Virus record (IMG/VR): IMGVR_UViG_3300033997_000192
Location: 1-39,992 of that record
DNA length: 39,992 bases
Reading direction: 5' to 3' (one strand)
Source of the DNA: a virus
Shown here one piece after another: positions 2,247 to 39,992 of the stretch (its first letter is position 1; the number at the start of each line of letters is the position of its first letter). A program made the translations under genes and the position numbers. The notes under the pieces were generated by a model that saw only the letters and a list, made by a program, of their open reading frames with translations, made no database searches and was not told where the DNA came from.

Positions 2247-3230
2247 ATGAGTGATTCAAGAGAAATTGCGATTGCTCCGGTAACATTTGGAGAGCTTCGA
2301 GAGATGGCAGAAACAATGGCTGCGTCTGGTATGTTCGGCAAAAACCCCGCGCAGATGATGAGTCTGATGCTCATTGCGCAAGCAGAAAACCTCCATCCCG
2401 CTCTCGCGGCTATGGAATACGACGTAATACAGGGACGCCCCGCTCTCAAGGGACAGGCTGCTCTTGCCAGGTTCCAGCAGTCGGGCGGATCTGTCGAGTG
2501 GAAAGTAAAGTCTGACGCCGAGGCGCGCGCCGTGTTTTCTCACCCACGCGGCGGATCACTCGAGGTTTCATGGACAATGGAGAGAGCCAAAAAAATGGGT
2601 CTCGACCAGAAAGACAACTGGAGAAAGCAGCCGGGTGTCATGCTCTCGTGGAGATGCGTTGCCGAGGGAGTCCGCGCCGTTTATCCCGCATGCCTGAACC
2701 GAATGTACCTCTCGGAAGAGGCGCAGGACTTCGAGCCTATGAGGAACGTAACGCCGGAGAGCAAGCCGGCACCTCGTAGCATCGAAACGTCGACATCCGC
2801 CGAATCCAAAAAGGACAATTCGTCCGTAGACACTTCAAAGAAATTGGCACCCTGCGCCGCTCAGATCAAGGCTGCCGAGAACGCCAAAAATCTCGCGGCT
2901 GCTGGCAAGCCCGATATCGACAAGGAAACGAAATCGCGTCTTTGGTCGGAATCTGGCAAAAAGGACGCCGTATACTGGAAACTGGTCTGCATCGAGCAGG
3001 AAAACCTCCTTGCGTCTCCTATCCAGAATGAACAGGAACCCGACAACACCGGCGATCTGTTCGGCGACCCCGTGCAGGAGATCATCGTCGAGCTTGAGGG
3101 CTGGATTGAATCAGACTCTGCGCCTCCGGCCATGCGTGAGGAGATCAGGTCTACCATCGAGAGCGGAGAAAATGACGTCCGCAAGCTGCGCGCGCTGCTT
3201 GATAAAGTAATCGCCGCGGCTGGACAGTAA
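2247..3230 (+). CDS. RecT-like single-strand annealing protein
   Basis: 327 residues. Residues 1-150 match the phage RecT/Bet pattern: REMAETMAASGMFGKNPAQMM, then AENLHPALAAMEYDVIQGRPALKGQAALARF, with the GxPAL core. Such proteins anneal complementary single strands during recombination and replication. The C-terminal half is low-complexity and acidic (poly-E/S, LEGWIESDSAPPAMREEI), possibly a partner-binding tail. The nuclease partner is probably the DUF1064 protein upstream. The stop lies just before an inverted repeat and the left junction of integron cassette array 1, so array genes are probably cotranscribed with it. Confidence 0.8.
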   Translation: MSDSREIAIAPVTFGELREMAETMAASGMFGKNPAQMMSLMLIAQAENLHPALAAMEYDVIQGRPALKGQAALARFQQSGGSVEWKVKSDAEARAVFSHPRGGSLEVSWTMERAKKMGLDQKDNWRKQPGVMLSWRCVAEGVRAVYPACLNRMYLSEEAQDFEPMRNVTPESKPAPRSIETSTSAESKKDNSSVDTSKKLAPCAAQIKAAENAKNLAAAGKPDIDKETKSRLWSESGKKDAVYWKLVCIEQENLLASPIQNEQEPDNTGDLFGDPVQEIIVELEGWIESDSAPPAMREEIRSTIESGENDVRKLRALLDKVIAAAGQ

Positions 3231-3239
3231 TCGTTCATG

Positions 3240-3281
3240 GGCTGAACATCTTATACTGTTCAGCCTAATATATGTTAGATG
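3240..3281 (+). other. Left junction of cassette array 1 (attI-like or secondary integration site)
   Basis: GGCTGAACA (3240-3248) and TGTTCAGCC (3256-3264) form a perfect 9-bp inverted repeat. It is followed by CTAATATATG|TTAGAT (about 3263-3281), where the bar marks the expected integron crossover. The same CTAATATATGTTAG block, also preceded by GGCTGAACAG, occurs at 37806-37833 at the start of array 2, after an unrelated gene. No R''/L'' half is recognisable, so this is not a full attC. It may be an attI-like site, a truncated attC, or a favoured phage site. Confidence 0.6.
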
Positions 3282-3289
3282 GATTCTTT

Positions 3290-3318
3290 AGCAGGATACC
3301 GGCTTACGGCCACTATCC
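3290..3318 (+). other. Leader hairpin of cassette 1
   Basis: AGGATA and TATCCT pair around a CCGG/GGCC-rich inner stem in the untranslated leader between the recombination point and the start codon of cassette 1. All five cassettes have an inverted repeat at this place. Confidence 0.45.
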
Positions 3319-3344
3319 TGACACGAACTAAACCGGAGGCAATC

Positions 3345-3518
3345 ATGACTGTATGGGTTGTAGAGTTTGACCGCGAAGACGACTATCACGAGGTTGTCGG
3401 GGTTTATGCAAACGAAGACCTTGCGACAACAGCGCGGCTTGAACGCGCGGCAGAAGAGGACGAAGACGCGGACGAGTTTTCCGTGAGCATTGAAGAGTTT
3501 GAAGTTGTCGGCATCTAA
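3345..3518 (+). CDS. Cassette 1 acidic small protein
   Basis: 57 residues from an ATG behind CCGGAGG. It starts TVWVVEFDREDDYHEVVGVYANEDLA and is very acidic toward the end (EEDEDADEF). It resembles small phage proteins that begin with a VWVVE-like strand and a 'GVFA' turn, of unknown function. The stop codon TAA lies inside the R'' box of the attC at 3513, the normal arrangement for an integron gene cassette (one ORF plus one attC). An extension to 3279 would read through the leader hairpin and is rejected. Confidence 0.75.
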   Translation: MTVWVVEFDREDDYHEVVGVYANEDLATTARLERAAEEDEDADEFSVSIEEFEVVGI

Positions 3519-3576
3519 CAACTGCTTCAACCTGACTCAACGCAGTAGCGTTTCGCAGGTTAAGCAAATGTTAGGC
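3513..3576 (+). other. attC: attC site 1 (integron recombination site)
   Basis: R'' ATCTAAC (3513-3519) and R' GTTAGGC (3570-3576) flank L'' GCTTCAACCTG and L' CAGGTTAAGC. L'' and L' are complementary except for one extra C in L'', which leaves a single extrahelical G on the folded bottom strand, as required for IntI recognition. The terminal structure is AACGC-AGTA-GCGTT. 64 bp is a typical short attC. Confidence 0.93.
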
Positions 3577-3583
3577 TGACAAC

Positions 3584-3612
3584 TACGGCATAACCGCAAG
3601 CGGTTATACCGA
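3584..3612 (+). other. Leader hairpin of cassette 2
   Basis: GGCATAACCGC/GCGGTTATACC is an inverted repeat in the leader. The leader from the crossover to the ribosome site (GACAACTACGGCATAACCGC and ACACGTTGCAAAAGG) is nearly identical to that of cassette 4 at 37834-37885, although the proteins differ. Confidence 0.55.
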
Positions 3613-3634
3613 CACGTTGCAAAAGGAGAAGGAA

Positions 3635-3829
3635 ATGATAGGAACGCTTGATATTGAGATTTACGAAAAGGCCGGTGCTGATGGCTGGGTAAAAAGTTGG
3701 GCACAAGCAAAATATCTTGCCCATGGCTTTGAGGATGTTTTGTGGACAGATGATATTGACGAGGCTTTTGCTTTCTTAAAGCAAAGCATAATAGACAAAG
3801 AAAGAAGCCTAACAATCGCTTCGACCTGA
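3635..3829 (+). CDS. Cassette 2 small protein with attC-encoded tail
   Basis: 64 residues from ATG behind AAAGGAG; an upstream in-frame TTG at 3617 is rejected. It reads MIGTLDIEIYEKAGADGWV, then AQAKYLAHGFEDVLWTDDIDEAFAFLKQ, a compact alpha/beta small protein of no family I recognise. Translation continues through R'' of the attC at 3807, so the last residues (SLTIAST) come from the recombination site. A cassette-5 protein ends in the near-identical LTTAST for the same reason. Confidence 0.7.
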   Translation: MIGTLDIEIYEKAGADGWVKSWAQAKYLAHGFEDVLWTDDIDEAFAFLKQSIIDKERSLTIAST

Positions 3830-3866
3830 CAAAATAGTAATTTTGCAGGTCAAGCGTATGTTAGGA
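3807..3866 (+). other. attC: attC site 2
   Basis: R'' GCCTAAC (3807-3813), R' GTTAGGA (3860-3866), L'' CGCTTCGACCTG, L' CAGGTCAAGCG. Relative to site 1 the L arms changed AACCTG/CAGGTT to GACCTG/CAGGTC, a compensatory change that keeps the stem, while the unpaired C stays. Terminal hairpin CAAAAT-AGTA-ATTTTG differs completely in sequence but not in shape. Confidence 0.93.
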
Positions 3867-3927
3867 CGACGGACAGCCGCATATCGGCTACGCCAATACG
3901 CGGACAATCCGCGAAAGGAGAAAGAGG

Positions 3928-4176
3928 ATGACTTGTAAAGGATGCAAACACTGGATCGATGACACGCCTGATTATGACAAGATTATGCACCCCGAAGACT
4001 ATGACACTGGCGAAGAAATGAAAATGCCGTTTTCTGTCAAAAAGTGCAAACACCCAGGAATTACGCTTTTCGAGCGCAATCCCGATCCGAAAGGCGTTTC
4101 TCTTTGTGATGGCTCGGACTACAGGGCAACTATGTATACCGGCCCTGACTATGGATGTGTAAACGGAGAATCCTAA
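3928..4176 (+). CDS. Cassette 3 cysteine-rich small protein
   Basis: 82 residues from ATG behind AAAGGAGAAAGAGG. CKGCKHW at residues 3-9 and KKCKHPG near residue 50, plus two later Cys (SLCDG, YGCVN), suggest a small zinc-binding fold; similar 'CKGCKHW' proteins occur in phages and prophages without known function. The leader has GCGGACAATCCGC and CCGCATATCGGC inverted repeats. The stop is the TAA inside R'' of the attC at 4171. Confidence 0.75.
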   Translation: MTCKGCKHWIDDTPDYDKIMHPEDYDTGEEMKMPFSVKKCKHPGITLFERNPDPKGVSLCDGSDYRATMYTGPDYGCVNGES

Positions 4177-4229
4177 CACATGGATCAACTTGGCAACGCT
4201 TCGCGTTGCAAGTTATCCAAATGTTGTCC
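4171..4229 (+). other. attC: attC site 3, last of array 1
   Basis: R'' TCCTAAC (4171-4177), L'' TGGATCAACTTG, L' CAAGTTATCCA and terminal hairpin GCAACGC-TTC-GCGTTGC. The L arms again pair perfectly once a single C is left out. R' is GTTGTCC (4223-4229), off consensus after GTT. This is expected for the last site of an array, where bases right of the crossover G belong to the insertion target. Confidence 0.88.
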
Positions 4230-4258
4230 GCCCGGAGTCATTAGATTCCGGGCTTTTT
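4230..4258 (+). terminator. Intrinsic terminator after cassette array 1
   Basis: GCCCGGA/TCCGGGC (7-bp stem, 10-nt loop) followed by TTTTT. It begins one base after the attC, so the array was inserted between the RecT-like gene and its terminator, and cassette genes use the early operon's transcript. Confidence 0.85.
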
Positions 4259-5326: not shown

Positions 5327-7867
5327 CTATATTGTTTTGTAAACCCTCAGAGAATCGAGAGCGCCATCAATAAAGGCAACGTCGGTAGTGTTGAGAGCGC
5401 AGAGAGCGGGGGAACCAACTCCCGTCAGTGTAAGCCCTGATCCTATCTGCGACCACGTCAATGCCGTCGTGTTCCAACGGTAGACTCTGAAATTCTCGTT
5501 AGTGTCATCAATAAAAGCAATGGTGGTAGAATTAAGAGTGCAGATTGCCGGAGCGTCTACTCCTGATACGAAAAACTCTGTTCCCAGAAGAGACCAGGTT
5601 GATCCGTTCCATCGATAAGTTCTCAGATACTCTTGCGCGCTATCAATTAAAACGATATCGGTAGAATTGAGCGCGCAGAGGGCGGGACGTGTATGTCCTC
5701 CTGTAAGTGCAAGCCCTGTTCCAACTTGTGCAAAAACAGTTCCGTTCCATCGATATGTTTTCAACGTATCCAAGGCGTTGTCCATAAAAGCTATATCGAC
5801 CGTGTTTAAAGCGCATATCGAGAAATATGTTCCAACTCCCGTCAGTGTAAGCCCTGATCCTATCTGCGACCACGTCAATGCCGTCGTGTTCCAACGGTAG
5901 ACCCGCAAGTCTAAATGGTTTGCATCAATAAAGGCAACGTCGGTAGAGTTTAGTGCGCATAGAGCGGGCTGAGGTGAAGCGGAAATAGTTAAAGCTGTTC
6001 CCAGAAGAGACCAGGTTGATCCGTTCCATCGATAAGTTCTGAGAGAGTCTGCCCCAGAAAAAGCGATGTCTGTGCTATTAAGTCTGCACAAAGCAGGAGT
6101 TGTTGAAGATATCGTCAGCCCTGTTCCGACCTGGGCAGTCAAACCAAACAATGGACCGGTAATCCGCGGCCATCCATCAGGACCGAATCTGTCAGAAAGT
6201 GGCGTCTGTATTTCTGCAAGACGACCAGAGCCAAGAGTAACGCCGAGAAGGGAAAGCCCGTCGGTGCTTGGTGTTGCACCGCGCACAAGATCCGCATTAA
6301 GTCCAGAACCAGTTCCATCGTTCGAAGAATCCCAAACCGTCGCCCCGTCATGAGCCTTGAGTCCTCCATCAGCACCGTATACCGCCATTGCGTGAGGCGT
6401 TCCGCTGTTACTTTTCTGCTGGCTGTCAACTACGTCGTCACCGTTGTAGAACCGCTGTTTCTGTGCAAGCGTCCATATAGCGGTATCGTATTCGATAGGT
6501 GACATTTCACCGTTGAACGCTGATCCTATGGTGAGAACTGCCGTAGCGAGTGTGGGTACTTGCGGGCTGGCGATAGTCTCAACGTCAACGCCGTCAATAT
6601 TGAAAATGAGTGCGGAAGCGTTATAGGTTATGACAACAGAGTGCCATGATGCGGTATCAGAAAGAACCCGAGTTCCATAACCATAGGCAGTACCGTTGTA
6701 CAGGGCAACGCGCATTTCGTTTGCCGTATTAAATCTTATGGACATCCCACGCGCAGGAGCTGTGTCATTAGATACAATAATCTGATCTGTCCCGACAGTT
6801 CTTCTCTTTATCCAGAAAGCGATCGTCCCGCTTGTGCCAATTACCGGATTATCAGCTACCAGTGATTGCGCGCCGTTGAAAGAGAGTGCCTGACCGCGAT
6901 TACCTTTAACCGGCAGTACGCCGTTGTTGGTGAAGCGATTACAACAGGCTTTGTCGTAGACGGGAGTGTCGTAGAGCCCGGAGCCGACGTAAATAGCGTC
7001 GATTTCAAGTGTTCCGACTGCATCGTTTTTGTATACAAGAAGTGTAGAAGAGGACGCTGTAGCGGGCACAAATCCGGAAACTATCTGCCATACGCCTGCC
7101 TTCAGTGCTGTCGAACTGAACGTCTGCCAACCAGACTGATCATAAGAAAGAACGACAGTTGTATTGTTGCTGCTGCGTACACGCGCTACGACTTCTTTGC
7201 CTACGGGCGTAACACTTCTTGCCATACCACAATACGTCTTACTTCCAGTGGCAGTAGCTTTAAGTACGCCTTCTCCAACAGAAAGTGTTGCTGAATCTAC
7301 ACCTGCTACAGACCAAGAATCCGTCGTAGCCCATGCGTCCTGAAAATACACTCTCCCTGCCACGTTATCCGGGAACGTCGGAACACCGTCGCCGTTTATC
7401 TGCATGGCGCGGGTGAGGTGGGAAAGAGGATAAGGGCTGAAATCGGTACTTGCCCAGAGATATCTCCAGTTTGTACCACCATCAGAAACGGGATTGTTAT
7501 TTATATTCGGCGATCCATCGGTGCCAGTTTTCGAGATATACACCTTTCCATCGGAGCCGATGACCGCCGAGGCGTTTGCGTAATAGTTTTCCGTAGCATC
7601 CCACTCGGGAATACCGGCTTGCTGACCATAGGCGATTTGCCTGGACAACAGATAATACAGTGCGTTGATATCCTGGATGCGAGGCGGCTCGGTTGCGCTT
7701 GCTGTTGCTCCGTAGAGTCCTCGCTTGAAAGTGTCGAGCGACTGGATAAGCGCAGGGTCTTTTGTGGTCGCGGCGGCGCCCTCTGAATCAGAACCAAATA
7801 CGCCGAATTCTGTTGTTGCTCCGGTTGATCCGAATATTTCCTGTTTTGCTCTGGTAAGTTTTGCCAT
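5327..7867 (-). CDS. Tail fiber / receptor-binding protein with LamG and propeller-like repeats
   Basis: 846 residues, last gene of the structural operon, ATG behind AAAAGGAGC. The N-terminus (about 1-160: FKRGLYGATAS, IAYGQQAGIPEWDATENYYANA) is a baseplate-attachment region seen in many tail fibers. Residues about 300-480 (GNRGQALSFNGAQSLVADN ... IAFWIKRR ... WHSVVITYN ... NIDGVDVE) form a LamG/concanavalin-like domain. Residues about 570-846 hold six repeats of about 46 residues: PALCALNSTDIAFID, then LRTYRWNGSTWSLLGTGLT. The strand layout and the last incomplete repeat suggest a six-bladed beta-propeller closed by the start of repeat 1. Both lectin-like domains point to glycan or surface-protein binding on the host. 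Confidence 0.85.
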   Translation of the reverse strand: MAKLTRAKQEIFGSTGATTEFGVFGSDSEGAAATTKDPALIQSLDTFKRGLYGATASATEPPRIQDINALYYLLSRQIAYGQQAGIPEWDATENYYANASAVIGSDGKVYISKTGTDGSPNINNNPVSDGGTNWRYLWASTDFSPYPLSHLTRAMQINGDGVPTFPDNVAGRVYFQDAWATTDSWSVAGVDSATLSVGEGVLKATATGSKTYCGMARSVTPVGKEVVARVRSSNNTTVVLSYDQSGWQTFSSTALKAGVWQIVSGFVPATASSSTLLVYKNDAVGTLEIDAIYVGSGLYDTPVYDKACCNRFTNNGVLPVKGNRGQALSFNGAQSLVADNPVIGTSGTIAFWIKRRTVGTDQIIVSNDTAPARGMSIRFNTANEMRVALYNGTAYGYGTRVLSDTASWHSVVITYNASALIFNIDGVDVETIASPQVPTLATAVLTIGSAFNGEMSPIEYDTAIWTLAQKQRFYNGDDVVDSQQKSNSGTPHAMAVYGADGGLKAHDGATVWDSSNDGTGSGLNADLVRGATPSTDGLSLLGVTLGSGRLAEIQTPLSDRFGPDGWPRITGPLFGLTAQVGTGLTISSTTPALCRLNSTDIAFSGADSLRTYRWNGSTWSLLGTALTISASPQPALCALNSTDVAFIDANHLDLRVYRWNTTALTWSQIGSGLTLTGVGTYFSICALNTVDIAFMDNALDTLKTYRWNGTVFAQVGTGLALTGGHTRPALCALNSTDIVLIDSAQEYLRTYRWNGSTWSLLGTEFFVSGVDAPAICTLNSTTIAFIDDTNENFRVYRWNTTALTWSQIGSGLTLTGVGSPALCALNTTDVAFIDGALDSLRVYKTI
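5415..5485. repeat. Intragenic direct repeat in fiber gene, copy 1
   Basis: 71 bases identical to 5832-5902, offset 417 bp (139 codons, three blades). A second 44-bp pair, 5580-5623 and 5997-6040, has the same 417-bp offset, so three blades were duplicated to make six. Confidence 0.85.
5832..5902. repeat. Intragenic direct repeat in fiber gene, copy 2
   Basis: Identical to 5415-5485. Perfect nucleotide identity, with more divergent sequence between, points to a recent duplication or ongoing gene conversion within the receptor-binding region. Confidence 0.85.
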
Positions 7868-20982: not shown

Positions 20983-21011
20983 ATGATACGGCAGGTGTAG
21001 GAAAAATACAA
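20983..21011 (-). promoter_or_regulatory. Leaderless promoter of the 20230-20976 gene
   Basis: Minus-strand TTGTAT (21011-21006), 17-nt spacer, TATCAT (20988-20983), 6 nt to the ATG. The gene lies beyond a plus-strand cargo unit that separates it from the capsid gene, so it needs its own promoter. Confidence 0.5.
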
Positions 21012-21039
21012 GTTTCGCACGATTTATTACAATGGACTA

Positions 21040-21068
21040 TTGACAATACATGGCAATGGATATATATT
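21040..21068 (+). promoter_or_regulatory. Promoter of cargo unit 1
   Basis: TTGACA (21040-21045), 17-nt spacer, TATATT (21063-21068), followed by ATAGGAGAT ribosome site and ATG 21092. ATTACAATGG just upstream resembles the operator half-site seen at other promoters. Confidence 0.75.
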
Positions 21069-21091
21069 TAATACAGATAGGAGATACAAAC

Positions 21092-21244
21092 ATGAAAGAA
21101 ACCAAGAAAGGAAACAAGGCCATCCGGATACTCGGCGGGAACGTTTTCTACGGGCAGTATTACGACGGCGAGTTTCAGGTGCTTGATTCCTGCTCCTACA
21201 CCGAAAGAAAATACCAGAACATGTGCAAAAAATACGGGTTTTGA
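21092..21244 (+). CDS. 50-residue cargo protein
   Basis: Short product KETKKGNKAIRILGGNVFYGQYYDGEFQVLDSCSYTERKYQNMCKKYGF, a small beta-rich protein of no known family. Strong promoter and AGGAGAT site make it a real gene despite its size. First of four plus-strand genes inserted between structural genes. Confidence 0.7.
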   Translation: MKETKKGNKAIRILGGNVFYGQYYDGEFQVLDSCSYTERKYQNMCKKYGF

Positions 21245-21287
21245 ACTGCTGCGCCGGTCGGGAGCGTATCCCGGCAAAGGATCCATA

Positions 21288-21764
21288 ATGAAACAGATAT
21301 TGATCGTCCTGGCTACTTTCCTTCTTGCGTCGTGCGCGGCCGTTCTCGACCCGTATTCCTACGTCTGCGACGAAATGAACTATGCCCTTGCGGACAATAT
21401 CTACCTTGCTTCTGGCGACTGGTCAAGCATCAATTCTCTTGAACAGATTACCCCGTGGATTAAAAAACGCATGGTATATAGACACGACACTCTTAACGAG
21501 TGGGATACGCCTTCCGTCGCTCTGGCTCGCGGTTATGGCGATTGTGAGGAGTTTTGCTTCGTGTTCATGAATATTGCCTATGTCCGGCTTGGGATGAAGT
21601 GTGGGCTTGCCGGGGTTGATTCAGACGAGAGAACCGTTCGGGAAGGCGGATGGTATGATCATTTCGTGGTAATTCTTCCTGATGGGACTCTTTACGAGCC
21701 CCAGGGCGGCGTACCTGTCCATTTTACCGTTAAGTATTCCTACACATTTGACGAAATATTTTGA
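21288..21764 (+). CDS. Lipoprotein with transglutaminase-like cysteine protease fold
   Basis: 158 residues. N-terminal lipoprotein signal QILIVLATFLLASC (lipobox LASC at about residue 16). Mature part has YGDCEEFCFVFMNIAYVRLG, then GGWYDHFVVILPDGTLYEPQGG. The Cys of GDC, the His of DHF and the E/D of YEP form a transglutaminase-like/BTLCP catalytic triad. Phages that encode a surface-exposed lipoprotein usually do so to alter the cell, for example by blocking superinfection; here it may process envelope proteins. ATG 21288 has AAAGGAT upstream. Confidence 0.8.
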   Translation: MKQILIVLATFLLASCAAVLDPYSYVCDEMNYALADNIYLASGDWSSINSLEQITPWIKKRMVYRHDTLNEWDTPSVALARGYGDCEEFCFVFMNIAYVRLGMKCGLAGVDSDERTVREGGWYDHFVVILPDGTLYEPQGGVPVHFTVKYSYTFDEIF

Positions 21765-21777
21765 TAAGGAGAGAACA

Positions 21778-22005
21778 ATGACGAGATTTGAGGTATTAAC
21801 GAAAAAGGCAGACGAGCTCTCTGAGCGCGGCCGTCTTTCTGTTCCCGGCGTTCGCGAGGAACTTTTCAAGCAGGCCCAGGATATCCGCGAAGGGCTCGAG
21901 GTCATGACCGTCGAGGATGCGGCCGACGTGATCCCCTCGTGCAAGGGTCGCGCTTGTACCGTCAAGAACTGCAGCGAGTGTTTGTCGCGGGGGATACGGG
22001 AATGA
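21778..22005 (+). CDS. Small cargo protein with Cys-rich end
   Basis: 75 residues from the ATG behind AAGGAGAG. RFEVLTKKADELSERGRLSVPGVREELFKQAQDIREG is helical; CKGRACTVKNCSECLSRG is Cys-rich and may bind zinc. Its end overlaps the next ATG by 4 nt. Confidence 0.7.
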   Translation: MTRFEVLTKKADELSERGRLSVPGVREELFKQAQDIREGLEVMTVEDAADVIPSCKGRACTVKNCSECLSRGIRE

Positions 22006-26305: not shown

Positions 26306-26577
26306 ATGGAAGAGAGAAAGATTGTACGGACGAACCGGGCGGGTGTGTTTTTTGGTAAGGTCGAGAAGCGCGAGGGAAACACCGTCACGTTGTCAAACGC
26401 CAGGCGCCTCTGGTATTGGGAAGGTGCCGCAAGCCTTTCGGAACTCGCGCAATTCGGTACGGCATCCGTAAGAGGTTGCAAATTCCCGTGTGCAGTCGAC
26501 GAGGTCGAGCTTTTCGACGTGCTCGAAATACTTTCCGTTTCCGACGAAGCCGCCGCGTCGATCGATAAGGTGAAAGA

Positions 26578-26593
<16 letters not shown>
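26306..26593 (+). CDS. DUF6948-like protein
   Basis: 95 residues from ATG behind GCGAAGGAG. EERKIVRTNRAGVFFGKVEKREGNTVTLSNARRLWYWEGAASLSELA matches small phage/gut-bacterial proteins of the DUF6948 type (conserved NARRLWYWxGAASL), of unknown function. It overlaps the start of the repeat protein by 16 nt; the two often occur together. Confidence 0.8.
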
Positions 26594-27402
<809 letters not shown>

Positions 27403-36960: not shown

Positions 36961-37425
36961 TCAAAAGGGAATATCGTCGGGAAAATCAGGCGGTTCGTCG
37001 CTGTTCTGCGCAACCTGCCGATTCGACGTAGGCGCACGAGAATGCCCCGCGCCTGCGTTCGGCGCACTGTTTTGGTGTAACTGCTCGCCAGATGCGTTTC
37101 CGCCTCCCAAAAGCTGGACATTCGAGGCGTTGATTTCAACTTTCGACCTCGTCTGTCCGTCCTGCTCCCATCGGTTCTGATGGAGTTCGCCATCGACCGC
37201 GACCTGTTTCCCTTTCACCAGGTACTGATTAAGCGCTTCGGCGGATTTACCCCAAAGAACTATGTCCAGAAAGGAAACTTCCTCGACCCATTCCTCGTTT
37301 TTCTTGATCCGTTTGCCGACTGCAAGAGAAAACTTACACACCGGCGTTCCGCTTGAAATATATTTCAATTCCGCGTCACGAACCAACCGTCCAATGCCAA
37401 CCCATTTGTTCAAATCACTTGCCAT
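36961..37425 (-). CDS. ssb: Single-stranded DNA-binding protein
   Basis: 154 residues. N-terminal OB fold: DLNKWVGIGRLVRDAELKYISSGTPVCKFSLAVGKRIKKNEEWVEEVSFLDIVLWGKSAEALNQYLVKGKQVAVDGEL. Unstructured linker, then the acidic tip DEPPDFPDDIPF that binds partner enzymes. Covers single strands in replication and helps the RecT-like annealing protein. GGAGGCTACGGA ribosome site. Confidence 0.95.
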   Translation of the reverse strand: MASDLNKWVGIGRLVRDAELKYISSGTPVCKFSLAVGKRIKKNEEWVEEVSFLDIVLWGKSAEALNQYLVKGKQVAVDGELHQNRWEQDGQTRSKVEINASNVQLLGGGNASGEQLHQNSAPNAGAGHSRAPTSNRQVAQNSDEPPDFPDDIPF

Positions 37426-37802: not shown

Positions 37803-37834
37803 GATTAGGCTGAACAGTCTAATATATGTTAGGC
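37803..37834 (+). other. Left junction of cassette array 2
   Basis: ATTAGGCTG AA CAGTCTAAT inverted repeat followed by ATATG|TTAGGC. Shares GGCTGAACAG and CTAATATATGTTAG with the left junction of array 1 at 3240-3281, although the genes on the left differ. This identifies a common insertion target. Confidence 0.6.
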
Positions 37835-37890
37835 TGACAACTACGGCATAACCGCTTTGCGCTTATACCGACACGTTGCAAAAGGAAAAA

Positions 37891-38130
37891 ATGATGGATG
37901 CCGAAAAACTGAAAAAAGCATTACAATCTGGTCTGGCCCTTGGTGCGCGGCTGTCTGTCGAGGGAATTAAATGCGATGACCAATTAAAAATGATTGCAGA
38001 TACCCTCGCAGAATTAGACCGTGATAAGCCCGTTTGTTACAAATGTAAATATGACGACTCGGAATTGTGCTATGAATGCAAACGAGCATACAGAACGATT
38101 GATAACTTTGAGAAAGTAGAAGAAGCCTAA
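37891..38130 (+). CDS. Cassette 4 small CxxC protein
   Basis: 79 residues; ATG 37891 or 37894 behind AAAAGGA. DAEKLKKALQSGLALGARLSVEGIKCDDQLKMIADTLAELDRDKPVCYKCKYDDSELCYECKRAY. Two CxxC pairs give a zinc ribbon. The leader is nearly the same as that of cassette 2. TAA stop lies in R'' of the attC at 38125. Confidence 0.76.
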   Translation: MMDAEKLKKALQSGLALGARLSVEGIKCDDQLKMIADTLAELDRDKPVCYKCKYDDSELCYECKRAYRTIDNFEKVEEA

Positions 38131-38188
38131 CAACTGCTTCAACCTGACTCCGATCAGTAGATCGGTGCAGGTTAAGCAAATGTTAGGT
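38125..38188 (+). other. attC: attC site 4
   Basis: R'' GCCTAAC (38125-38131), R' GTTAGGT (38182-38188). L'' GCTTCAACCTG and L' CAGGTTAAGC identical to site 1, unpaired C kept. Terminal hairpin CCGAT-CAGTAG-ATCGG differs in stem sequence from site 1 but not in form. Confidence 0.93.
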
Positions 38189-38198
38189 TGACGCTCAA

Positions 38199-38226
38199 CC
38201 ATATAGCGCCAGTAGTCGCTATATGG
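38199..38226 (+). other. Leader hairpin of cassette 5
   Basis: CCATATAGCG and CGCTATATGG form a perfect 10-bp stem with an 8-nt loop, immediately inside the cassette. The stretch 38227-38283 that follows is A/T-rich with two A-runs and a T-run and holds no gene. Confidence 0.55.
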
Positions 38227-38283
38227 ATTGACCGCAAAAAAGATCGAAAAAAGTGCATTTTCTACTTTTTTTACAGATTTTAG

Positions 38284-38312
38284 TTGACATAATATCTTGA
38301 TTGTTGTATAGT
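38284..38312 (+). promoter_or_regulatory. Internal promoter of cassette 5
   Basis: TTGACA (38284-38289), 17-nt spacer, TATAGT (38307-38312). Near-consensus, and the strongest promoter-like match in any cassette. CTTGAT and ATCAAG flank the -10 as a possible operator. Cassettes with their own promoter are often toxin-antitoxin or defence cassettes. Confidence 0.82.
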
Positions 38313-38384
38313 TATATCAAGGTTGATAGTTAAGGCAACCAACTCAGAGCGACCTGCGGGCTGGTCAGTAAACCCGATAGAAAG

Positions 38385-38573
38385 ATGAGCAAAATCCAGT
38401 TTGACACGATCAACGGCGTACAGAAGGTTCAGGAGTTCGATTCCGAGATCGAAATGGTTTCCCAGGACACTGTTTTTGATTACCTGCACAACGCCGAAGA
38501 TGGCACGGTTTACGGATGCGAAGTTGATGCGGAAACCTTCGCTAAGATCGAAGAAGAGTACGGGGTAAAGTAA
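38385..38573 (+). CDS. Cassette 5 first gene, small acidic protein
   Basis: 62 residues: MSKIQFDTINGVQKVQEFDSE, then IEMVSQDTVFDYLHNAEDGTVYGCEVDAETFAKIEEEYGV. Acidic, with an ED-rich end; could be an antitoxin-type or binding protein. Ribosome site (GATAGAAAG) is weak. It is only 2 nt before the next gene. Confidence 0.68.
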   Translation: MSKIQFDTINGVQKVQEFDSEIEMVSQDTVFDYLHNAEDGTVYGCEVDAETFAKIEEEYGVK

Positions 38574-38575
38574 AG

Positions 38576-38758
38576 ATGCAACACGGCGGCAAGCGCGATG
38601 GGGCGGGCCGCCGCCCCATTTTTGAGAAAACGAAGCTAACCCAGATACGGGTAAATCAGGAAATCTGGGACGCGATCCCGGCTCCAAAAGCGGAATGGGT
38701 TAGGGAAGCGATAGAAGAAAAGGCGAAAAAAGAGAACCTAACAACTGCTTCAACCTGA
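38576..38758 (+). CDS. Cassette 5 second gene, RHH-like basic protein
   Basis: 60 residues. QHGGKRDGAGRRPIFEKTKLTQIRVNQEIWDAIPAPKAEWVREAIEEKAKKE matches phage and plasmid proteins with a Gly-rich GxRxGAGRRP start and a strand-helix-helix (RHH) end, a DNA-binding family. The C-terminal LTTAST is encoded by R''/L'' of the attC at 38736. With 38385 it forms a compact two-gene cassette, candidate toxin-antitoxin or repressor pair. Confidence 0.75.
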   Translation: MQHGGKRDGAGRRPIFEKTKLTQIRVNQEIWDAIPAPKAEWVREAIEEKAKKENLTTAST

Positions 38759-38793
38759 CATCCTAACGGATGCAGGTTAAGCAAATGTTATCT
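38736..38793 (+). other. attC: attC site 5, last of array 2
   Basis: R'' ACCTAAC (38736-38742), L'' and L' identical to sites 1 and 4, terminal hairpin ATCC-TAAC-GGAT. R' is GTTATCT (38787-38793), off consensus beyond GTT, as expected for the array end. Its TTA (38788-38790) is also the stop codon of the minus-strand gene beyond. Confidence 0.9.
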
Positions 38794-39461: not shown

Positions 39462-39884
39462 TTATCTTTTTCTGAACACGCGAAGACTAGCGATTTTTCC
39501 GTATTTCACTGTTTGTGAATTGACGAGACTATCCCAGTCGGGCAGTTTGAAATGCCCAGTTGTAGATCCGACGCGCACGCGCTCCCATCGCTCTACAACC
39601 CATTCCTCTGCCTTCGCTTTGTAGCCGGACGGCTCTTTGGAGACACGACACGACGTGCCTGATAGATATGAAAGCATTTCATCCGGGAGTAAGACGAACA
39701 TGTTTTCGTTGTCGTTAGGGTCTACCCAGTTAAAATAGATGTATTTCCGTTCGATGCAGTCTATGAGCGTTTCGACAACAGGCCGAGACTTTCCTGTGAT
39801 CTTTTCGGCGATTTTCATGATGGAAAGCGCATAGCACGCGGCTTCCCCCGCCTCGCTTAAAAATGTCTGAATTCCTTCTTTCAT
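39462..39884 (-). CDS. DUF261-like protein in the lysis block
   Basis: 140 residues from ATG 39884 behind GGAGGAGCGAAGCC. Sequence GIQTFLSEAGEAACYALSIMKIAEKITGKSRPVVETLIDCIERKYIYFNWVDPNDNENMF, then EPSGYKAKAEEWVVERWERVRVGSTTGHFKLPDWDSLVNSQTVKYGKIASLRVFRK. The AACYALS Cys, GHFKL His and DWDSL Asp are arranged as in papain-like/C39-type peptidases. DUF261 is known mainly from Borrelia and Treponema, supporting a spirochaete host. I infer a peptidoglycan peptidase (endolysin) because holin genes are adjacent. Confidence 0.75.
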   Translation of the reverse strand: MKEGIQTFLSEAGEAACYALSIMKIAEKITGKSRPVVETLIDCIERKYIYFNWVDPNDNENMFVLLPDEMLSYLSGTSCRVSKEPSGYKAKAEEWVVERWERVRVGSTTGHFKLPDWDSLVNSQTVKYGKIASLRVFRKR

Positions 39885-39992
39885 GGCTTCGCTCCTCCAA
39901 AACAGGCTGTTATCACCGTCGCGGCGGCCGTTATCAGCGCAACGGCAACGGTGGCGGTGTGCGCCGGGCCCCATCTTTTCGGCGCCGGTCGT
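39866..39992. repeat. Terminal direct repeat, right copy
   Basis: Identical to 1-127. Covers the start of the DUF261 gene and the 3' end of the coiled-coil gene that continues at 16-369 on the circle. Confidence 0.9.

Follow-up and report, generated by a model that had tools for sequence, protein, structure and literature searches.

The DNA analysed here, called the window throughout, is the whole 39,992-nt virus record IMGVR_UViG_3300033997_000192, and all coordinates are positions in it. It is very likely the complete genome of a contractile-tailed spirochaete phage that carries two integrase-less integrons, each consisting of an attI site followed by cassettes, and that would use the IntI of its host in trans. 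In integrons, IntI recombines the folded, single-stranded bottom strand of attC with double-stranded attI, or one attC with another. The first array (3251-4229) comprises attI and three cassettes, and the second (37805-38793) comprises attI and two cassettes. The reading is carried by sequence comparisons, which establish the identity of the attC and attI sites, the absence of recombinase genes, the presence or absence of array 1 in a related phage (G017), and the occurrence of differing cassettes at matching attI sites.

Phage genome

The window ends in the same 127 bp with which it begins, and the genome is therefore taken as complete. Matches to PHROGs include tail sheath, tape measure, portal, both terminase subunits, and major capsid, as well as helicase loaders, RecT, SSB, and a methyltransferase. 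The terminal repeat and the two flanking genes of interest are located as follows:

39866-39992, no strand: terminal direct repeat, 127 bp, identical to 1-127
2247-3230, plus strand: gene for a RecT-like ssDNA annealing protein, upstream flank of array 1 (phrog_561, E 1e-15)
36961-37425, minus strand: gene for a single-strand DNA binding protein, flank near array 2 (phrog_44, E 1.7e-45)

The window is derived from metagenome data, and its arrays could in principle reflect an assembly chimera between a phage and a spirochaete integron. This explanation is exceedingly improbable and was rejected, as the genome is complete with terminal repeats, a like arrangement occurs in independent records (G017, G003, G002, G418, G419, G018, G021, and G027), and array 1 is placed precisely between RecT and a terminator.

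No DNA resembling the window was found among the INPHARED phage records. An Rfam search of the window at the gathering score returned two tRNAs only, and a relaxed E-value added nothing relevant; the two tRNA genes lie at 640-713 and 841-914. A repeat search located 19 overlapping copies of units of 12 and 18 bases, arranged in tandem, at 26538-26982. A tail-fibre-like gene of 846 aa (5327-7867, minus strand) is internally repetitive, with a repeat length of about 140 bases; the repeats include a 71-base stretch that occurs twice without change, 417 bases apart. In addition, a weak DUF261 match, slightly below the Pfam cut-off, is present at 39462-39974 on the minus strand; DUF261 is a spirochaete (Borrelia) family, and the match would fit a spirochaete host for this phage.

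attC sites

Five attC sites are present in the window. They are listed from R'' to R', with the bottom strand as the predicted folded, recombinogenic strand and with the score from covariance model R2:

3514-3576, plus strand: attC1 (54.8 bits)
3808-3866, plus strand: attC2, which carries a compensatory change (53.9 bits)
4172-4229, plus strand: attC3 (34.4 bits)
38126-38188, plus strand: attC4 (53.9 bits)
38737-38793, plus strand: attC5 (56.4 bits)

The sites attC1-3 share one direction, and a short ORF precedes each of them. A structural pattern consisting of R'', 4 bp, a 1-nt bulge, 6 bp, a loop, 6 bp, 4 bp, and R' identified these five sites and no other match over the whole window, with none in shuffled windows. 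The initial annotation had proposed an integron cassette array at 3275-4229, with three cassettes and attC 1-3, and this proposal is borne out by model R2, by the structural pattern, and by the folds. The bottom-strand folding that it suggested as a check gave z values of -5.5 to -10.2 for the five sites relative to dinucleotide shuffles. The folded layout is an R box, an unpaired spacer, a stem of 5 + 6 bp, and a variable tip, and every fold displays an extrahelical G, an extrahelical T or a T/C mismatch, and an unpaired central spacer. The single unpaired C in L'' of the top strand, described earlier for the copies of array 1, occurs in all five. The paired change reported for site 2, from AACCTG/CAGGTT to GACCTG/CAGGTC, is likewise real, and the stems covary more widely: across 27 related sites, 14 of the 21 pairs have changed on both sides. 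Pairing cells amount to 92% in these sites, compared with a shuffled mean of 77% and with 25-43% for slid helices.

The type of attC was assessed with two covariance models. Model R2, for which only attC sites beside intI in eight IntI-bearing Treponema-like genomes were used, is a form of the covariance-model search that had been suggested for these sites. On the window it recovers exactly the five attC sites, on the bottom strand, at 34.4-56.4 bits (E 1.8e-15 to 2.5e-8), whereas the best non-attC place reaches 11.3 bits. In the reverse search, model R1, built from phage-type attC sites, gave matches in 48 of the 345 Spirochaetota genomes, and some of these matches form arrays of tens of sites. 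TIGR02249 integrases directly adjoin the spirochaete arrays detected in this way in G153, G058, G046, and G192; in G153, attC begins at 1232125, after the end of intI at 1231113. As judged by both searches, the window sites are genuine integron attC sites of the Treponema/spirochaete kind, with attC3 and some attC sites of the related phage G003 scoring below the others.

The copies sit between short genes, and a hairpin at 3238-3267, overlapping attI 1, can also be read as a terminator-like site. Both observations would suit a phage-specific repeat, i.e., a regulatory hairpin or terminator that merely resembles attC. However, a model derived from IntI-adjacent chromosomal attC sites recovers exactly the window sites, and the R box and the extrahelical bases are retained. 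Furthermore, the same attC type forms long arrays beside intI, rather than being a repeat never found near an intI gene, which the initial annotation had named as the outcome that would count against it. The covariance-model tests thus refute the repeat reading, whose probability is now minimal.

attI sites

Each array is headed at its 5' end by a putative attI site:

3251-3278, plus strand: attI site 1, TTATACTGTTCAGCCTAATATATG^TTAG, crossover between G3274 and T3275 (chromosomal attI matrix rank 2)
37805-37832, plus strand: attI site 2, TTAGGCTGAACAGTCTAATATATG^TTAG (chromosomal attI matrix rank 1; same place in G017)

The shared head of both arrays is TTA-N2-CTG-N2-CAG-N2-TAATATATGTTAG. The heads were evaluated with a weight matrix made from 15 spirochaete chromosomal sites beside intI, with no phage sequence included. 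Among approximately 80,000 window positions, this matrix ranks 37809-37832 first and 3255-3278 second, so that both arrays have the attI at the 5' end that characterizes an integron. When the same matrix is applied to other phages, the predicted head ranks first or second in its own contig for 12 of 13 heads. The score of attI site 1 is 16.5 bits, which is within the range of the best matches in shuffled windows (mean 14.0, 95th percentile 18.3, largest 20.5); consequently, its identification rests on rank, position, and resemblance to site 2. On the basis of this independent model, the array heads are attI sites.

The head motif also occurs at arrays in the phage contigs G003 (two), G002, G017, G418, G419, G018, and G021, and in a weaker form in G004, G016/G022, G024, and G027. 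The heads are conserved to the left of G^TT, and their right side varies with the cassette. Spirochaete attI sites beside intI share the core of the phage head, as seen for G392 (TAGGAACAGTCCAATAAATGTTAG), whose attI comes nearest to the phage sites, and the window (GCTGAACAGTCTAATATATGTTAG). In IMG/VR, a search with just the 14-base core CTAATATATGTTAG is unspecific, and the 28-base head pattern was required; a looser head pattern gave chance matches within genes. The exact phage head pattern is absent from 393 Spirochaetota genomes, with one poor match. This absence was considered as evidence against attI, an argument that was overturned once the attI sites beside intI had been collected and compared. 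In class 1 integrons, attI1 contains an R box with a G^TTRRRY crossover beside an inverted L box. The phage sites are like attI1 in the R box with its crossover and in the inverted L box, and differ from it in sequence.

The right half of the head (CAG..TAA..ATGTTAG) looks like the L'-R' half of an attC, and the heads might accordingly be decayed attC sites left by earlier cassettes rather than attI. This is quite improbable: the heads have no R'' and are not reported by the attC model, the chromosomal attI matrix detects them, and each array has a single head, always at the 5' end. Regarding transcription, attI 1 contains TATACT without a clear -35, and a promoter scan found no promoter at attI, with a good candidate located within cassette 5 instead.

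Cassettes and their leaders

The cassettes lie in one orientation and are flanked by attC, as in an integron. Their genes are small and mostly without assignable function:

3275-3570, plus strand: cassette 1, leader hairpin, ORF 3345-3518 (DUF7336-like), and attC1
3571-3860, plus strand: cassette 2, leader, ORF 3635-3829 (64 aa), and attC2
3861-4223, plus strand: cassette 3, leader, ORF 3928-4176 (82 aa, Cys-containing), and attC3
37829-38182, plus strand: cassette 4, leader, ORF 37891-38130, and attC4
38183-38787, plus strand: cassette 5, leader, promoter-like site 38284-38312, ORFs 38385-38573 and 38576-38758, and attC5
3290-3340, 3578-3630, 3870-3915, 37833-37885, and 38195-38235: leader hairpins

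The promoter-like site of cassette 5 is a good sigma-70-like match in a sequence scan. The array start given in the initial annotation, 3275, coincides exactly with the G^TT crossover of attI 1, and the element as a whole reaches further upstream, into the attI site itself. Its statement that the stop codons lie within R'' applies to cassettes 1, 3, and 4; in cassette 2 (TGA 3827-3829) and in the last ORF of cassette 5 (TGA ending 38758), the stop lies in L''. The second array holds two more cassettes (37829-38793). An addition to that annotation, and the more novel part, is the attI heading each array together with the presence or absence of arrays and the differing cassettes among relatives.

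The leaders contain a hairpin of one or two tiers that begins just 3' of R' and ends at the Shine-Dalgarno sequence; Treponema cassettes have a simpler form of it after R'. The leaders belong to a few families that are reused before different genes in several phages. Between the window and G003, leaders of 93-97% identity stand before genes that differ, and the cassette 1 leader matches the leader of another G003 gene at 93% over 68 nt. The median z of the leader hairpin is -3.0 on the bottom strand and -1.8 on the top strand, compared with -0.2 in upstream regions taken as controls, and the top strand has more A.C than G.T mismatches. A role as an RNA riboregulator was considered and dropped, as the top strand folds moderately and the bottom strand better. 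A tentative extension, which is doubtful at present, is that the attI sites of spirochaete phages are permanent docks for cassettes that phages hold in a common pool and that host IntI moves, and that the leader hairpin may take part in recombination, which would make the cassette a mobile unit with two structured ssDNA elements.

Absence of integrase and the host

No match to the IntI profile TIGR02249 was found in the window, in agreement with the initial annotation, which had seen no IntI gene in the genome. The arrays are therefore not complete integrons; with three and two clustered attC sites and no intI, they are CALINs. IntI is likewise missing from G017 and G003, and tyrosine and serine recombinases (PF00589, PF00239) are missing from the window, from G017, and from G003. 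The lack of recombinase genes argues that these three phages are probably virulent and unable to move cassettes themselves. Since their docks are loaded and the moving enzyme is not encoded, the enzyme of the spirochaete host is probably borrowed.

A spirochaete host is supported by the attC type, by the attI type, and by a prophage record. This virus record, G019, is a prophage that carries a related array with the same attC type and has its own phage integrase; an 8-kb comparison found it 100% identical to chromosomal DNA of Spirochaetales bacterium SZUA-475 (G008:C1 ~544000-552000, L154). SZUA-475 encodes IntI, on a different contig from the prophage. On viral contigs, IntI was found at 24 loci, one of which (L340) has a weak attC of the window type; the other 23 are without a clear attC of this type. 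L340 (IMG/VR 3300034524_000163) is a 20-kb 'viral' contig whose IntI is 62% identical to a spirochaete IntI, and it also has an attI-like site, a small-multidrug-resistance-like cassette, and one attC. It is possibly a bacterial or prophage fragment.

Gain, loss, and replacement of cassettes in related phages

The closest comparison is provided by G017 (IMG/VR 3300020045_006566), a phage that is likewise complete and has a terminal repeat of 121 bp. Its terminase is 94% identical to that of the window, its genes are collinear at 68-84% DNA identity, and its RecT is 56% identical. In G017, the terminator GCCCGGAGTC... follows approximately 20 bp after the RecT gene, and the block of attI and three cassettes is absent. 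The corresponding feature of the window marks the right edge of the array-1 insertion:

4230-4253, plus strand: terminator-like hairpin, which directly follows RecT in G017

Identity between G017 and the window is 0/10 just before 4230 and 10/10 from 4230, the first base past attC3. Both phages share the left flank and attI of the array-2 locus, where G017 carries one cassette (a Lar-like protein) and the window two unrelated ones. A third phage, G003 (terminase 73%), has two attI sites: the one that resembles this attI is followed by six cassettes that differ again, and the other by a single cassette. At the array-2 locus, the homology of G003 to G017 covers the attI and a short stretch on its right, and does not extend to the left flank.

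These differences bear on whether the arrays are inert relics. In that case, attI and cassettes would have come from a host integron in a single capture, by ordinary or illegitimate recombination, and would now be passive cargo. Passive cargo was the reading proposed by Qi et al. (2023) for their phages (PMC9892861). A relic would be in keeping with a phage without IntI, with small cassette genes mostly of no assignable function, and with the lower scores of attC3 and some G003 attC sites. Nevertheless, the window has two arrays, each with a separate attI, relatives differ in their cassettes at matching attI sites, a gain or loss is seen that is clean to the single base, and compensatory changes keep the stems. 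A relic is therefore considered unlikely, and arrays served by host IntI are the preferred reading.

Cassette products in G002 (~21000-21900), G004, G023, G024, and G027 include RtcB ligase and DNA methyltransferases; those of G004 and G027 were confirmed with Pfam, and those of G023 and G024 were judged from sequence only. The DNA methyltransferases and the Lar-like protein in the cassettes of related phages suggest counter-defence cargo. Cassette genes are seldom common to different phages or to the sampled bacterial arrays; consequently, traffic between phage and bacterial pools is not directly visible.

Comparison with known systems

A phage cassette array per se is already known, and the suggestion in the initial annotation that a phage as cassette vehicle would be new does not hold. 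Qi et al. (2023) described 17 CALINs in virulent and temperate phages, reported that IntI1 recombines attC sites of virulent phages in an assay, and found an attI heading a CALIN in the Shewanella prophage M16-3 (PMC9892861). Like the window phage and its relatives, these phages carry integrase-less attC arrays with small genes and DNA methyltransferases. Unlike the window, they have Tetrasphaera, Polaribacter, Pseudoalteromonas, and other hosts, with no mention of Treponema or spirochaetes, and neither attI in a virulent phage nor turnover between related phages is shown there (PMC9892861). Prophage M16-3 resembles the window in having an attI-headed CALIN in phage DNA; however, it is cryptic, also holds a complete integron with intI, and has an attI of the Shewanella type (PMC9892861).

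The chromosomal integrons of Treponema (Wu et al. 2013, PMC3607928) have the same attC type and attI family as the window, and their cassettes likewise run away from attI. They differ in being chromosomal, with intI pointing toward attI and with long arrays, whereas the window has no intI and carries two short arrays on a phage. As compared with this literature, what appears to be new is the occurrence of attI docks across a group of spirochaete phages, with the window and G003 having two docks each, and, from the genome comparisons, the gain, loss, and replacement of cassettes at phage-borne docks.

Proposed mechanism and significance

From these patterns we infer recombination itself, the action of host IntI in trans, the direction of traffic, the expression of the cassettes, and their benefit, which may be connected as follows. 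When an integron-bearing spirochaete is infected, its IntI would act in trans on the attI and attC sites of the phage. The folded bottom strand of an attC would be joined to the double-stranded attI on the phage DNA, or to another attC, with the cassettes supplied by the host array or by co-infecting phages. Stretches of replicating phage DNA that are single-stranded, close to the RecT and SSB genes, could supply the substrate. Early phage transcripts (the RecT operon and the SSB region) would then express the cassettes, and cassette 5 has an additional predicted sigma-70-like site.

Such a mechanism would describe a route of cassettes into phage genomes in which the phage brings along its own attI and an integrase gene is unnecessary. 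Phages of this kind would be movable platforms that sample cassettes and spread them among integron-bearing bacteria, and this platform could be tested with one enzyme and two short DNA sites.
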